A stretch of 64,000 nt of DNA from Actinernus sp. WN-2022 (lineage: Eukaryota > Cnidaria > Anthozoa > Actiniaria > Actinernidae), in assembly GCA_030867875.1 (NCBI GenBank), contig JAOWCC010000577.1, positions 88,827,740 through 88,891,739 of the forward strand. Reading direction: 5' to 3'. Both the position numbers and the translations under genes were made by a program. The notes under the pieces were generated by a model that was given only the letters and a program-made list of their open reading frames with translations, was not told where the DNA came from and did no database searches. Each line of letters begins with the position of its first letter. Position 1 is the first letter of the stretch. Of this stretch, positions 15,475-58,497 are shown piece by piece.

Positions 15475-15504
15475 GGCTATATTTCTCTGACTTAAAAAAA
15501 CACT

Positions 15505-15752
15505 GAATTTCTAACGGGACCTGAAACAACCATAACGAGGCTGATCAAGGACAGGATCCAGCTAAATCACAGATTGAATTGGAACTTAACGTGTTGGTTC
15601 CTTTGGATGGAGGTAAACCGGAGAGCCCGGAAAAACCCTCGGAGCAAGGGCGAAACACCAACAAAACTGAACTCTCATATGGCGTCACGTCCGGGGATCG
15701 AACCTGGGCCACAGAGGTGAGAGGCGAAGTGCTTGACCACTGCGCCACCTCC
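15505..15752 (-). mobile_element. tRNA-derived SINE, full head
   Basis: Read on the minus strand, the head (15752 to ~15679) has a Pol III A box (TGGCGCAGTGG) and B box (GGTTCGATCC). The unrelated body contains GCTCCGAGGGTTTTTCCGGG and ends near GTTAGAAATTCAG. A second copy of the body, without the tRNA head, lies at 50297-50478. The head passes directly into a 10-bp minisatellite. Confidence 0.85.
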
Positions 15753-15986
15753 GGCTCCCCCCGACTCCCCCCGACTCCCCCCGACTCCCCCCGACTTCCC
15801 CCGGCTCCCCCCGGCTCCCCCCGGCTCCCCCCGGCTCCCCCCGGCTCCCCCCGGCTCCCCCCGACTCCCCCCGACTCCCCCCGGCTCCCCCCGGCTCCCC
15901 CCGGCTCCCCCCGACTCCCCCCGACTCCCACCGACTCCCCCCGACTCCCCCCGACTCCCCCCGGCTCCCCCCGGCTCCCCCCGGCT
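15751..15986. repeat. 10-bp GC-rich minisatellite, about 23.6 units
   Basis: Units CCGGCTCCCC and CCGACTCCCC alternate in blocks for 236 bp, with single variants at 15791 (CCGACTTCCC) and 15921 (CCGACTCCCA). The first unit overlaps the 5' tip of the SINE, so the array probably grew from it. It is open in several frames, giving proline- or glycine-rich peptides; I do not treat these as proteins. Confidence 0.97.
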
Positions 15987-17189: not shown

Positions 17190-17640
17190 CCCAAAGTTTT
17201 TATTTGAATTCCGAATTTGAATTCCAAATGAAACACTTGAATCTGCCATCGTGTGGGCAAGGTTAGGCCCAATGTTGATGAAATAATGATTGAAGGCTTC
17301 AGCTATTTTTGGAAGAATTGATATTAACATCATTTAGTTTCAATTCGTTTACAGCAGTGTTGTTGCACGTTTTCCCAAGAAAATTATTAATTGTTGTCCA
17401 CGCATCTTTAGCATTATCCTTCTGGAGCGCAATTTTATCGCGATAATAATTTGTTTTAGCCTGCCGCAAGGCGATATTAACCTTATTTCGGTAAGGCTTA
17501 TAGTCCTGCCAATCCGTGTTCTGTTTAGTTATTGCAGCCTTGCATTTTAGCTTCTCCCTGATATGTATTAACTGTTTTATCTCCTTGGGCAACCATGGGA
17601 TGTTAAACGATCTCACCATACAGGGAAAGTAAATCTTGAC
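17190..17640 (-). pseudogene. LINE linker fragment fused to the Gypsy piece (copy 1)
   Basis: Minus strand: NIPWLPKEIKQLIHIREKLK and ALRQAKTNYYRDKI, typical of the region between endonuclease and RT, ending around AEAFNHYFINIGP after a frameshift. The RT itself is absent. The open frame 17299-17796 is a chimera of Gypsy integrase and LINE. Confidence 0.75.
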
Positions 17641-18190
17641 CAACTTTGGACCAGGGTGTGCTGGAAATTTTGTGTTACAAGAGGCTCTTTTCTGTTGTTT
17701 AGACATGAAGTCAGCACAAATTCCATAAGAATCCCCTTTGTCTCTGATTTCAGCTGACATGCCGGGCCAGAATAGAACATCACGTGCTCTGCGCACGCAG
17801 GAATCTGGGCCCAGCTAGGTGACTGATGTGGGATCTTGCAGACATCTCTGGCCGCATAGAAGTTGGTATGATCACTTTCATTCCTTTATACAGAACACCG
17901 TCTTGGACTGTCAGTTCATCTCTGAAATTCCAATAGTCTCTTATGCAAACTGGAACCTGGCCAACCTGCCATTGTGGCATTCATGAGTGTTTGAAGTACT
18001 GCGTCGGAGGTTGTGTATGATTTGACTTGTTGATGCGTAGCCTCAGACAGACGCATGTAGTCAACTGATTGATTGCAGCTATTTCATCAAACAGCTGCTG
18101 CTCTTGAGATAGATGAATATCTGATATTCTGGTATGTTCTCTTCACTGGTCTCGTCATTCTTCAGTTATTCCCTGCTTAGTATATCAACG
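17640..18190 (-). pseudogene. Gypsy LTR retrotransposon pol fragment (copy 1)
   Basis: Minus strand: a trace of the RNase H end, then a linker (YWNFRDELTVQDGVLYKGMK). The zinc-binding N-terminal integrase region follows (RRARDVLFWPGM...CGIC-like, here YGICADFM). A frameshift separates the two ORFs near 17790. It stops near 17640 and LINE sequence follows in the same frame. No LTRs are visible. Confidence 0.8.
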
Positions 18191-19408: not shown

Positions 19409-19859
19409 CCCAAAGTTTTTATTTGAATTCCGAATTTGAATTCCAAATGAAACACTTGAATCTGCCATCGTGTGGGCAAGGTTAGGCCCAATGTTGATGA
19501 AATAATGATTGAAGGCTTCAGCTATTTTTGGAAGAATTGATATTAACATCATTTAGTTTCAATTCGTTTACAGCAGTGTTGTTGCACGTTTTCCCAAGAA
19601 AATTATTAATTGTTGTCCACGCATCTTTAGCATTATCCTTCTGGAGCGCAATTTTATCGCGATAATAATTTGTTTTAGCCTGCCGCAAGGCGATATTAAC
19701 CTTATTTCGGTAAGGCTTATAGTCCTGCCAATCCGTGTTCTGTTTAGTTATTGCAGCCTTGCATTTTAGCTTCTCCCTGATATGTATTAACTGTTTTATC
19801 TCCTTGGGCAACCATGGGATGTTAAACGATCTCACCATACAGGGAAAGTAAATCTTGAC
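19409..19859 (-). pseudogene. LINE linker fragment (copy 2)
   Basis: Same as 17190-17640, in the second unit. The fusion junction is identical, so the Gypsy/LINE fusion predates the duplication. Confidence 0.75.
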
Positions 19860-20409
19860 CAACTTTGGACCAGGGTGTGCTGGAAATTTTGTGTTACAAG
19901 AGGCTCTTTTCTGTTGTTTAGACATGAAGTCAGCACAAATTCCATAAGAATCCCCTTTGTCTCTGATTTCAGCTGACATGCCGGGCCAGAATAGAACATC
20001 ACGTGCTCTGCGCACGCAGGAATCTGGGCCCAGCTAGGTGACTGATGTGGGATCTTGCAGACATCTCTGGCCGCATAGAAGTTGGTATGATCACTTTCAT
20101 TCCTTTATACAGAACACCGTCTTGGACTGTCAGTTCATCTCTGAAATTCCAATAGTCTCTTATGCAAACTGGAACCTGGCCAACCTGCCATTGTGGCATT
20201 CATGAGTGTTTGAAGTACTGCGTCGGAGGTTGTGTATGATTTGACTTGTTGATGCGTAGCCTCAGACAGACGCATGTAGTCAACTGATTGATTGCAGCTA
20301 TTTCATCAAACAGCTGCTGCTCTTGAGATAGATGAATATCTGATATTCTGGTATGTTCTCTTCACTGGTCTCGTCATTCTTCAGTTATTCCCTGCTTAGT
20401 ATATCAACG
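19859..20409 (-). pseudogene. Gypsy pol fragment (copy 2)
   Basis: Same content as 17640-18190, in the second duplication unit (offset 2219 bp), including the same frameshift. Confidence 0.8.
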
Positions 20410-47941: not shown

Positions 47942-48642
47942 CAAAAACCGGAAGTCAAAATCGCATCTGCTGCTGCGAACATAGCAACGGTGTTGCATAG
48001 CAACGAAATATGTCAATGGGCCCTTAAACGCTGCAACGTTTTTTAACGAAATAAAAACTAAAATATTCGCAAAATATCCTTTGTTCATTTCTGTATTATA
48101 TATTAACCCATGGCTAGATGGGTGCAAAAAATTAGTGTGGTCGTACTAATAAAAAAAATCAAAACAAATTAATTAGGTTCAACACGGGTATTTTGGATCA
48201 GTTCAAAAGCCGCAATTTTCTTGCAATAACGATTCGGATATAATTTAATGTCATTTCTGTATAAAAAAGATACACAAACTAATTCATTTTCATCTCGTGA
48301 CACATTTTGCCCTGGGATCGGTAAACGCGTCATGTACATGTAAACCGGCCTTTAAATTATTGAGCAACTAAAGAAAGGCGACTGACCGGCTACCGCTTTT
48401 ACTATTGAAAATGTGTGATCAAAACATTGTAGGCCAAAATGGCAGAGTTTCACGGTTGAACTTGCTACTTCGTTACCGTCAAACACAAAGGAAAACAAAG
48501 CCTATTATGTTTCTTTGTGTCTGCCAAAGCAACAACTGTCAAGAAAGTCTGATGGAAATATAAAGGATATATATATATGATATATGTAAGTCTTTGGCAG
48601 AGTTTTTTTGTTTCAGTGTATATATATATATATATAAAGGGC

Positions 48643-48779
48643 TTATTACACGGAAAGTTGTGTAATACGGCTGGGTATTTTTACGAGTCAGTTTTATTTT
48701 TTCGAGCCTGAAAGGCGAGAAAAAATAAAATTGACGAGTAAAAATTCCCAGCCGTATTACACAACTCTTCGTGTAATAA
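48643..48779. mobile_element. 137-bp hairpin element
   Basis: TTATTACACGGAAAGTTGTG...ACGGCTGGG is inverted at 48718-48779 with ~60-bp arms and a ~12-bp loop. CGAG...TTTTATTTTTTC lies in the arms. Confidence 0.85.
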
Positions 48780-48783
48780 ATTG

Positions 48784-49120
48784 TTTATTATACGACAGCT
48801 AACACGAACAAAACATGTTTGTTTTCGCTTACCTTACTGCTCTGTTTGAAGAAAATCTTGAGAGAAGAAATCTCGAGAGAAGAAATCTCTCAGCCTCACG
48901 TCGGGGGCGGGCGCGCACTGAAAAGTTTTTTTCGCGCGCTAAAAGCTGATTGGCTGTTACTCAAACAGCCCCACTTCGATTGGCTCGCGCGCTTACAAAA
49001 CCTTTTAAGTGTTGAATAAACCTGTGCAAACCGGTTTGCGACCCGTGTAATACCGTCTCATATTTGCACTCGTTTTAGCCCGTATTTGCACTCGAAAACG
49101 CCAAGTCGTATAATAAATAT
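48784..49120. mobile_element. ~335-bp short-TIR element
   Basis: TTTATTATACGAC at the left and GTCGTATAATAAA at the right. Contains a doublet of TATTTGCACTCG and two GATTGGCT words. Weak evidence. Confidence 0.5.
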
Positions 49121-49271
49121 ATATATACATATATTTAAAAATACTCCTAACGCTTACCGAGAGGATGTACTGAACCTGATTCAATATCATAACTCAATAT
49201 CATAACTACATATACATATATAATCGCCGTGACCCCATATAACGCACCAATACCCACGATTGCTCTCATCT

Positions 49272-49345
49272 GACTTGATAGCTCAGTTGGTAGAGCGCCA
49301 GACATGTAACCTGGAGGTCGTTGGGTTCGAGTCCCACTTGGGTCA
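49272..49345 (+). tRNA. tRNA-like gene, Thr(TGT)-like, unit 1
   Basis: A cloverleaf can be drawn: acceptor GACTTGA/TTGGGTC (with G-U pairs), D stem GCTC/GAGC, anticodon stem CCAGA/CCTGG (one A-C mismatch), loop CATGTAA, T loop TTCGAGT. The anticodon would be TGT (Thr), but position 33 is A instead of the invariant T. It is more likely a tRNA-like or SINE-related Pol III gene than a working tRNA. TTTTTT follows 5 bp downstream. Confidence 0.6.
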
Positions 49346-49529
49346 GAGATTTTTTCTCTTTCCCTCGTAGGGCGTGCACACTTAGCACTACAGCTTACCA
49401 CTTTATATATTACATTCTTTACACTTACTAGTGCTACGCGGCAAACATGATTCAATATCATAACTACATATACATATATAATCGCCGTGACCCCATATAA
49501 CGCACCAATACCCACGATTGCTCTCATCT

Positions 49530-49603
49530 GACTTGATAGCTCAGTTGGTAGAGCGCCAGACATGTAACCTGGAGGTCGTTGGGTTCGAGTCCCACTTGGG
49601 TCA
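49530..49603 (+). tRNA. tRNA-like gene, unit 2
   Basis: Same sequence as unit 1, with the same non-standard A33 and the same downstream T6. Confidence 0.6.
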
Positions 49604-49787
49604 GAGATTTTTTCTCTTTCCCTCGTAGGGCGTGCACACTTAGCACTACAGCTTACCACTTTATATATTACATTCTTTACACTTACTAGTGCTACGCGGC
49701 AAACATGATTCAATATCATAACTGCATATACATATATAATCGCCGTGACCCCATATAACGCACCAATACCCACGATTGCTCTCATCT

Positions 49788-49861
49788 GACTTGATAGCTC
49801 GGTTGGTAGAGCGCCAGACATGTAACCTGGAGGTCGTTGGGTTCGAGTCCCACTTGGGTCA
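49788..49861 (+). tRNA. tRNA-like gene, unit 3
   Basis: As unit 1 except GCTCGGTTGGTAG in the D arm (A to G), a change in the A box. Confidence 0.6.
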
Positions 49862-50045
49862 GAGATTTTTTCTCTTTCCCTCGTAGGGCGTGCACACTTA
49901 GCACTACAGCTTACCACTTTATATATTACATTCTTTACACTTACTAGTGCTACGCGGCAAACATGATTCAATATCATAACTACATATACATATATAATCG
50001 CCGTGACCCCATATAACGCACCAATACCCACGATTGCTCTCATCT

Positions 50046-50119
50046 GACTTGATAGCTGAGTTGGTAGAGCGCCAGACATGTAACCTGGAGGTCGTTGGGT
50101 TCGAGTCCCACTTGGGTCA
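50046..50119 (+). tRNA. tRNA-like gene, unit 4
   Basis: As unit 1 except GCTGAGTTGGTAG (C to G), which breaks one D-stem pair. Confidence 0.55.
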
Positions 50120-50296
50120 GAGATTTTTTCTCTTTCCCTCGTAGGGCGTGCACACTTAGCACTACAGCTTACCACTTTATATATTACATTCTTTGTACTG
50201 AACCTGGCCTACTGTCAGATCAAAAACTGAGGAATCGGGCCAATTACCACTATTATTTGAAGCCATTACTTTCAAAAGGAACGAATAAACTCTCTC

Positions 50297-50478
50297 TGAA
50301 TTTCTAACGAGACCTGACTGAAACAACCATGGGGGCTGATCAAAGCCAGGTCCCGGCTAATCCACAGATCGAATTGGAATTTAGCGTGTTGGTTTTTGCG
50401 GAGGGAGGAAAACCGGAGAACCCGGAGAAAAACCCTCGGAGCAAGGGCGAGATACCAACAAACTCAACTCACATATAA
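50297..50478 (-). mobile_element. SINE body, second copy, headless
   Basis: Matches 15505-15680 (CCCTCGGAGCAAGGGCGA, GAATTGGAA, GCGTGTTGGTT; plus-strand words) but the tRNA-like head is absent, so it is 5'-truncated. Confidence 0.85.
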
Positions 50479-57196: not shown

Positions 57197-58497
57197 TATA
57201 GTCCCGGTGTACCAGCGATTTCGCCCCCCCCGTGAATTCGCCCCCCGGGGGGCGAAATCGCTAGTGAATTCGCCCCCCCTTCCTCGCCTTCCTCTAGCGA
57301 TTTCGCCCCCTCTCCCTCTAACCTTTTAAAAGGTTATGAATACAAGTTTTCCTTCTTTTTATTACTGGAATGTATTGGAAGTGGAGAATAGTAATACAAA
57401 AAAACTATCCGTAATGTGTATAAAGGCATGCAATTCAATTTTATTTTAGAATTCACTTTTCTTAGACAAAATTCGTGCTGGTAGATACGGTAAACGCTGC
57501 AATTTTCATTCGCGCGGGCAGTGCAACATACAATCTTCGTCAATCTTCGAATGATTAGTTGTTAGTATTTCTTGCCTGAAACCAACATGTAGATGATGTA
57601 ATTATTGTGGATACTTAAAGGTTTTGATAACCCGTTTATCCACCTACTTTGAAAAGACTTTGCCAAATGTTCAAGTGTTACCGACTCGCGTGAAAACGTC
57701 CTGAATAAACAAGCTAATGAACTAATTAAGATCTAAAACGGCGGGAAGTTTTAAAACTTACCTCAGCTTGCAGCGAGTGGACTCGTATTTGGAAACAACT
57801 GCCAAATAGCCTGATGATTTTTACATGCATGAAAACCATAATGAAGTTGACGTAATTATCGTGGTATGTAAGTTTTTATAACCCGTAATGCTCGCGTCGA
57901 CCCATCTATTTTGAAATAACTTTGCCGAATAAAGGAGTGTTACCGACTCGCGTGCTTTGTTCTATTTCAATTGAGCTAACGGCGCTTGTTAATTCGGTAA
58001 TTAGATCAGTTTTAACTAGGAAAACCTTTCTGGATAAACAGCTTATTAACTAATGAGAAGATAAAACGGCGGTAAGTTTTGCAATTTTCTAGCAGTGTGA
58101 TTAACTCAAATTCGGAAAGAATTTGAAATGATTTTCCGAAGAAAAGGAGTGTTACCGTCTCGCGTATTTTTGTAGTCAGTAGTAGTAATAGTAACTATTT
58201 TTAAACTTTAGATTTATAAAAAAAAAACTTTTTATTCAGTGCGTTGACATGTACTGCCTCTATTTTCTGAGGCGGGGCGATTTCAATAAGAATTACGACT
58301 ACAATTCACTAGCGATTTCGCCCCCCCTAGGGGGGGGGGGCGAATTCACTGAGGGGGGGGGGGCGAATTCACTAGTGATCTCGCCCCGGGGAGGGCGAAT
58401 TCACTAGTGATCTCGCCCCGGGGGGGGGGGCGAATTCACTAGCGATTTCGCCCGGGGGGGGGCGAATTCACTGGGGGGGCGAAATCGCTGTGACACC
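57197..58497. mobile_element. 1.3-kb element with arrays of GCGATTTCGCCCC palindromes
   Basis: Ends CCGGTGT..CAGCGATTTCGCC, inverted at the right (GGCGAAATCGCTGTGACACC). Both subterminal regions alternate AGCGATTTCGCCCC and AGTGAATTCGCCCC in both orientations (57210-57310; 58305-58490). The AT-rich interior repeats a ~270-bp unit (GTGTTACCGACTCGCGTG at 57676 and 57938, a variant at 58149). No ORF. Confidence 0.85.

Follow-up and report, generated by a model that had tools for sequence, protein, structure and literature searches.

The question raised by this locus is whether four tandem tRNA-like units of fixed period, lying in the 64,000-nt stretch of Actinernus sp. WN-2022 DNA analysed here (hereafter the window), are a cluster of Pol III genes, a satellite, or the product of an insertion. 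The tandem structure itself, four near-identical units repeating every 258 bp as described in a sequence-only reading of the window, is confirmed: TRF reports a period of 258 with 3.9 copies and 99% matches at 49194-50194, and a repeat search returned unit spacings of 258, 258 and 258. As argued below, the array is likely to be the insertion of a non-autonomous retroelement, for which a monomeric circular RNA in the tRNA sense was reverse-transcribed several times round, the circle being a template that we infer from the traces it would leave. The coordinates of the array and of other features in the window are given in Table 1.

Table 1. Features of the array and its surroundings (positions are those of the window).
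Feature	Position	Strand	Remarks
Inserted multimer	49179..50193	+	1,015 bp; 258-bp unit, 3.9 copies; tRNA sense along +
Left target-site duplication TGTACTGAACCTG	49166..49178	+	abuts insert exactly
Right target-site duplication TGTACTGAACCTG	50194..50206	+	abuts insert exactly
13-bp TCAATATCATAAC, two copies	49181..49207	+	confined to left (5') end of insert
tRNA-like copy 1	49272..49345	+	A box 49279-49290, B box 49324-49334
T6 after tRNA-like copy 1	49350..49355	+	
tRNA-like copy 2	49530..49603	+	T6 at 49608-49613
tRNA-like copy 3	49788..49861	+	A box changed; T6 at 49866-49871
tRNA-like copy 4	50046..50119	+	one pair of the D stem lost; T6 at 50124-50129
Site A (unit positions 131-153)	49401..49423	+	AT-rich; window insert's right border ends here
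29-nt stretch	49421..49449	+	
Site B (unit positions 197-212)	49467..49482	+	second AT-rich zone
353-aa open frame	49147-50208	minus	spans whole array
tRNA-derived SINE-like repeat	15480-15760	minus	A and B boxes; adjoins 24 copies of the 10-bp repeat CCGGCTCCCC
Relative of the SINE-like repeat's 3' part	50296-50476		about 82% identical; just right of array
MITE-like long hairpin and 13-bp inverted-repeat pair	48634-48788 and 48784-49117		76-nt arms, 84% complementary
Two identical 171-aa open frames	17299-17814 and 19518-20033		about 2.2 kb apart: recent duplication
Tandem G-runs with GAATTCACTAGTGAT	58329-58472		

The tRNA-like part of the unit carries several marks of degeneration. ARAGORN calls four tRNA-Thr(TGT) in the array, and the Rfam tRNA model gives 47.4, 47.4, 42.6 and 42.4 bits, below the 53.4-74.6 bits of the four E. 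coli tRNAs that served as a yardstick. The loss of the invariant T33 and the G-U-rich acceptor noted earlier are both borne out, with an anticodon loop of CAUGUAA, which places A at position 33, and G-U at three of the seven acceptor pairs. All four copies also share an A-C mismatch in the anticodon stem and a bulged U in the T stem, so that none has the U33 and intact stems of a decoding tRNA-Thr; the tRNA-like sequence is unlikely to decode, and the earlier view that it is not an ordinary tRNA-Thr holds. Taken alone it folds no better than shuffled sequences (minimum-energy z of 0.43 to 1.07 for three copies), and in copy 1 the cloverleaf, at -17.8 kcal/mol, is near and not at the minimum of -19.1 kcal/mol. 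The plus-strand circle, when folded, is more stable than shuffles (z of -2.7, and -1.9 for the minus strand), in a predicted structure where the cloverleaf, with the exception of the anticodon stem, is not formed.

The promoter-like features fared unevenly. The T6 run ascribed to each unit is present in four of four and starts four bases past the discriminator base, while of the two internal boxes said to be in every unit the B box agrees with the consensus in all four, and the A box in three, copy 3 being changed. A T6 would terminate a Pol III transcript of such a unit at about 80-90 nt, and the template that was copied is the whole unit, which leaves the idea of Pol III transcription, taken for the whole unit, unsupported.

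The borders of the array describe how it arrived. The insert comprises three full periods and one partial period, and the 13-mer TGTACTGAACCTG, the presence of which at both borders had been read as a hint of a defined unit of duplication, is indeed meaningful, but it bounds the whole multimer and not the repeated unit. It stands at the outer borders, is not at the internal junctions, and has no further exact occurrence within the window, which makes it a target-site duplication of the entire multimer. Among 20,000 random 1,015-bp stretches, a 13-bp repeat no more than 3 bases from the edges was found in 3 and a longer one in none, where about 3 draws are expected to fall on the array itself. 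The 29-nt stretch of Table 1 is at all three internal junctions and is missing from both insert ends, from which it follows that a multimer or a circle existed before insertion. An extra copy of TCAATATCATAAC is found at the left end of the insert only. A minus orientation of the insert, taken from this left-end duplication, was considered and then reversed by the 3'-end pattern of the family described below. The duplication aside, only three positions vary among the copies; every one of these changes is confined to a single copy, and two of them sit side by side in the D arm.

The repeat is not a one-off, as many further arrays are present in the assembly. An exact 32-base piece of the tRNA-like sequence occurs 1,933 times in the genome, compared with 0 for its reversed control. 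Searching the genome (1.39 Gb in 1,772 contigs) with one unit, 40 of the 452 candidates were scored, giving 178 matches that were grouped as 39 arrays including that of the window; the 38 others were fetched, L016 and L036 were dropped as likely segmental duplicates, and 37 arrays were compared, which are thus the best matches to the window's unit among the 40 candidates scored. The first 100 places of a search with the tRNA-like pattern, falling into 47 clusters, served as a further sample (hereafter the pattern sample). Unit length in the family is 253-263 bp. The tRNA core found no match in collections of viral contigs and of genome contigs, nor did the spacer in the viral contigs. We consider the family likely to be a non-autonomous retroelement, young and of high copy number, that is copied from a circular template.

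Of the 37 arrays, 28 have direct repeats of 9 bp or more near their two borders, no farther than about 30 bp away (compared with 12 of 1,332 mismatched flank pairs made by swapping), and in 20 the repeats reach at least 12 bp (compared with none of the 1,332). The commonest length is 13 bp, found exactly in 12 arrays, and no border repeat of at least 9 bp was found in nine; the borders of L023, L034 and L038 were placed by hand. The ends of the inserts within the unit follow a pattern as well. Out of 53 same-strand runs, which include second same-strand pieces of L030 and L038, 47 end 3', in the tRNA sense, in one of two zones, with 25 in zone A (unit positions 131-160) and 22 in zone B (191-220). 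The 5' ends are scattered round the unit, five of the 53 lying inside the two 3'-end zones; some 5' ends at position 1 are an artefact of the alignment reference, and the flanks of L045 and L029 extend the unit by about 14-18 bases. Preferred 3' ends with variable 5' ends suggest that the template was a tRNA-sense RNA, with DNA synthesis from sites A and B. Genome copies headed by the tRNA-like sequence, as SINEs would be and as the sequence-only reading proposed to look for, do not agree with 5' ends scattered in this way. What remains of the SINE-type reading is that the array is part of a mobile repeat; a SINE master array is unsupported, with at least two cores in 26 of the 47 pattern-sample clusters (the other 21 hold one exact core only) and 5' ends that are not at the tRNA-like sequence.

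Many of the inserts have two arms. Both orientations are present in 14 of the 37 loci, and in all 14 the minus arm is on the left and the plus arm on the right, such that the arms point outward; the same layout is seen in seven of seven two-strand clusters of the pattern sample, two of which look like mutual copies. For the 13 two-armed loci that were scored, the arms pair zone A with zone B in ten, use one zone twice in none, and have one end elsewhere in three. At the arm junctions of these 13 loci there are overlaps of 2-4 bases in five, 2-17 bases assignable to neither arm in seven, and neither in one. Judging by these sequences, a single RNA seems to be primed by the two ends of the target, at sites A and B. 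Twin priming is known for L1 and resembles the two-armed inserts, the difference here being a preferred outer end on both arms.

Variants among the units of an array speak to the template from which they were copied. We counted variants wherever three or more units of an array cover the position, 121 in all. Of these, 97 are confined to a single unit and 11 are array-wide, present in every covered unit; 7 more are lacking from just one unit and 6 are intermediate, so that 13 are neither single-unit nor array-wide. The 18 in all or all but one of the units compare with a permutation mean of 0.78 and a maximum of 3 in 200, and equal spacings within 8 of 11 pattern-sample arrays compare with a mean of 1.38 and a maximum of 5 in 5,000 shuffles; such permutations demonstrate clustering within arrays and by themselves cannot separate a circle from a uniform linear template. 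The three arrays with unequal spacings have 253/256, 256/258 and 255/257, and unit length differs between arrays (253 to 263 bp) though equal within those eight. The 11 array-wide variants are spread over 11 arrays; seven are private to one array, and four (in L026, L029, L034 and L045) recur in one or two other arrays. Array-wide variants are carried by four of four units in both L040 and L027, while the 253C>T of L045 is in six of six covered units and is found elsewhere in one unit of L034. In L047 a single insertion is in nine of nine covered units, across both arms. Array-wide variants and array-specific unit lengths are explained directly by a monomeric circle that was copied several times. 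The window array, having single-copy variants only, owes its circle to the evidence of the family. In L012 and L023 the variants alternate, as dimeric circles or a mixture of templates could bring about; L035 is mixed.

The distribution of changes gives only a hint of selection on the tRNA-like sequence. Single-unit substitutions fall in it in 22 of 91 cases, about as expected where 29% of the bases lie, and array-wide substitutions in 0 of 10 (p 0.04), a count of substitutions that stands apart from the array-wide insertion of L047, which does fall in the tRNA-like sequence. Four arrays of other unit lengths differ, single-unit changes aside, in the spacer only; since these arrays were found via the exact 32-base match, only the remaining tRNA-like positions are informative.

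The rival explanations may now be weighed against this evidence. A linear template, in which multi-unit read-through RNA of an existing array is copied by LINE-type or Penelope-type reverse transcription without a circle, would account for the target-site duplications, the 5' truncation, the 3' preference and the two-armed inserts, and the mixed or alternating variants of L012, L023 and L035 fit the copying of mixed arrays. We nonetheless regard it as rather unlikely, because every array-wide variant and every unit length would call for a source array that was already uniform, including the change in every covered unit of L045 and the insertion that runs through both arms of L047; moreover, the presence of the L045 change in one unit of L034 is what a single-unit parent would give, though chance could also produce it. 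Excised circular DNA multimers would be likewise expected to yield array-wide variants and unit lengths, but their insertion leaves the strand-specific 3' zones, the two-zone two-armed inserts and the 13-bp mode of the duplications unexplained, and seems highly improbable.

Growth in place, by which a single unit was inserted and then expanded or homogenised through unequal exchange or gene conversion in the manner of a satellite, has some precedent in tRNA-containing satellites (PMC10702118, in the part of the text available). It is improbable here given that the 29-nt junction stretch of the window is missing at both ends and that the duplication lies outside the multimer, and it would not predict preferred 3' zones or head-to-head arms. 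We consider it very improbable that the array is a Pol III-transcribed tRNA-Thr(UGU) cluster, a set of tRNA-derived regulatory genes, or SINE master copies. The box matches, the T6 runs and tRNA scores of 42-47 bits are in keeping with such genes, as is the occurrence of tandem tRNA genes with a period of about 200 bp in Nippostrongylus (PMC5765664, in the part available); against them stand the A33, stem mismatch and bulge of all four copies, scores below those of the E. coli tRNAs, the dispersal of the family with target-site duplications, and single-unit changes that strike the tRNA-like sequence about as often as expected.

Returning to the circular RNA, the process would run as follows. 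The template would be a monomeric circle of one unit, about 258 nt, in the tRNA sense; a cut end of the target would anneal to one of its AU-rich sites (A or B) and be extended several times round by a borrowed reverse transcriptase. If both target ends primed, usually one per site, two outward arms joined in the middle would result. The circle itself is probably made by cutting longer transcripts of arrays already in the genome and ligating the product, a route proposed for animal retrozymes; candidates for the cutting activity are enzymes of tRNA processing, which would act on the tRNA-like part, or a ribozyme not yet described. Searches with cmscan over the window array region and L074 (to E 10) and over 14 loci (at the gathering threshold) returned no ribozyme family, and inside the units nothing but tRNA. 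It is possible, although we rather doubt it, that the circle is made without a known ribozyme, via the tRNA-like part (or by an undescribed self-cleaving ribozyme), and then enters rolling-circle, two-ended target-primed reverse transcription. One conceivable route is pairing, within a transcript of several units, between the 5' half of a tRNA-like sequence and the 3' half of the one that follows, leaving exactly one unit between the paired halves as an "intron" that tRNA-splicing endonuclease and RTCB ligase would free as a circle; according to the available part of PMC13247085, tRNA introns may be circularised in RTCB-dependent pre-tRNA splicing. The lack of a predicted cloverleaf in the folded circle argues against this tRNA-splicing idea unless proteins assist, while the absence of array-wide substitutions from the tRNA-like sequence and the spacer-only differences of the four other-length arrays argue weakly for it.

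Other features of the window deserve brief mention. The minus-strand 353-aa frame was rejected as a gene: 258 is divisible by 3, one frame is open by chance, a fully open frame also appears in 185 out of 3,000 shuffles of the unit, neither of two protein searches gave a homologue, and the two Pfam hits lie below cut-off. Rfam miRNA hits at 48656-48766 were likewise set aside, being weak, below gathering scores, and on the DNA hairpin. The window also holds a LINE-like protein, the top-scoring relative of which, among the best 120 of 7,941 matches, few of them named, is from Exaiptasia diaphana at 46% identity, which makes a cnidarian host probable. The GAATTCACTAGTGAT G-run repeat resembles what we take to be a common T-vector cloning site, possibly by contamination or coincidence.

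The same genome also contains type I hammerhead repeats in short arrays. A hammerhead search of the genome gave 68 matches from 74 scored candidates, with two or three spaced 370-380 bp apart in each of six clusters, and none in 14 control genomes. Of 20 fetched loci (L054-L073, 370-bp unit), 18 share a preferred 3' end at unit positions 109-121 with variable 5' ends, 13 extend beyond a single unit (to about 2.4 units on one strand at most), and one, L055, is two-armed. Exact border repeats of at least 10 bp at 3 of the 20 loci, and at 6 of 17 with one mismatch allowed (a count without a control), suggest target-site duplication weakly. The hammerhead and tRNA-like units have no clear shared sequence. 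The motif TACAT is found in the tRNA-like unit at positions 145, 199 and 205, at sites A and B, and its sole occurrence in the hammerhead unit is at position 115, at the 3' end; from this post hoc observation, one partner enzyme may serve both repeats.

An insertion behaviour much like that of retrozymes, with no hammerhead, would point to another route to animal circular RNA. With its many near-identical copies, the family would let one read from genomic scars where synthesis is primed, in which direction it runs, that both ends can prime and that each array has one template molecule, and it offers a way to test how tRNA-like sequences, RNA ligation and mobile DNA are connected. The literature searched (titles and openings of abstracts, with partial coverage) held no ribozyme-less tandem tRNA-like element with these features, and several known systems share some of them. 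The satellites Rana/polIII (about 250 nt), newt PolIII/TAN (about 360 nt) and OAX are tandem with a tRNA-related part, two of them with a similar unit size (PMC10702118, in the part available); the terms "target site" and "circular" are absent from the main text of that article. The tandem tRNA genes of Nippostrongylus brasiliensis, with units of about 200 bp and close to 150 copies, are described in the available part of PMC5765664 as a conserved tRNA gene in one long array, whereas the sequence here is a degenerate tRNA-like one in short dispersed inserts. A tRNA-derived SINE has a tRNA head at its 5' end, where the family has scattered 5' ends, and the internal boxes of such a SINE are present in the window in the proportions given above. 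Helenus/TRIMp3 elements are, in what is available of PMC10886601, non-autonomous with a tRNA-like Pol III promoter, and tandem arrays are reported for one family; they also have LTRs, a primer-binding site, a polypurine tract and 4-5-bp duplications. By eye only, the 29-nt stretch contains no TGG and no purine run, and identity with Helenus or TRIMs was rejected as the duplications of the family are most often 13 bp, not 4-5 bp.

The closest likeness is to repeats with ribozymes. Schistosome hammerhead repeats with a tRNA have, as here, a tRNA inside a tandem mobile repeat, and they carry a hammerhead where none was found in our unit (PMC4918200, in the part available). Animal retrozymes, as far as the available parts of PMC7229834 and PMC4918200 describe them, consist of non-coding 150-450-bp units in tandem that carry hammerhead ribozymes; they are known from cnidarians and other animals, occur as linear and circular RNA and have long target-site duplications, 15 bp in Nematostella, and their circles have been proposed as templates for tandem cDNA (PMC7229834, same part). 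The word "inverted" is absent from the main text of PMC7229834. With the metazoan retrozymes, which carry a type I hammerhead, the family has in common small tandem non-coding units, here of 253-263 bp, and long target-site duplications, which in most arrays also exceed the 4 bp of plant retrozymes. Since the scans of the unit gave neither a self-cleaving type I hammerhead nor any other ribozyme of Rfam, membership among the retrozymes fails on the defining ribozyme, while the mode of working matches. What sets the family apart from retrozymes is that its unit has a tRNA-like sequence followed by T6, that its 3' ends favour two zones, and that inserts with two arms are frequent.
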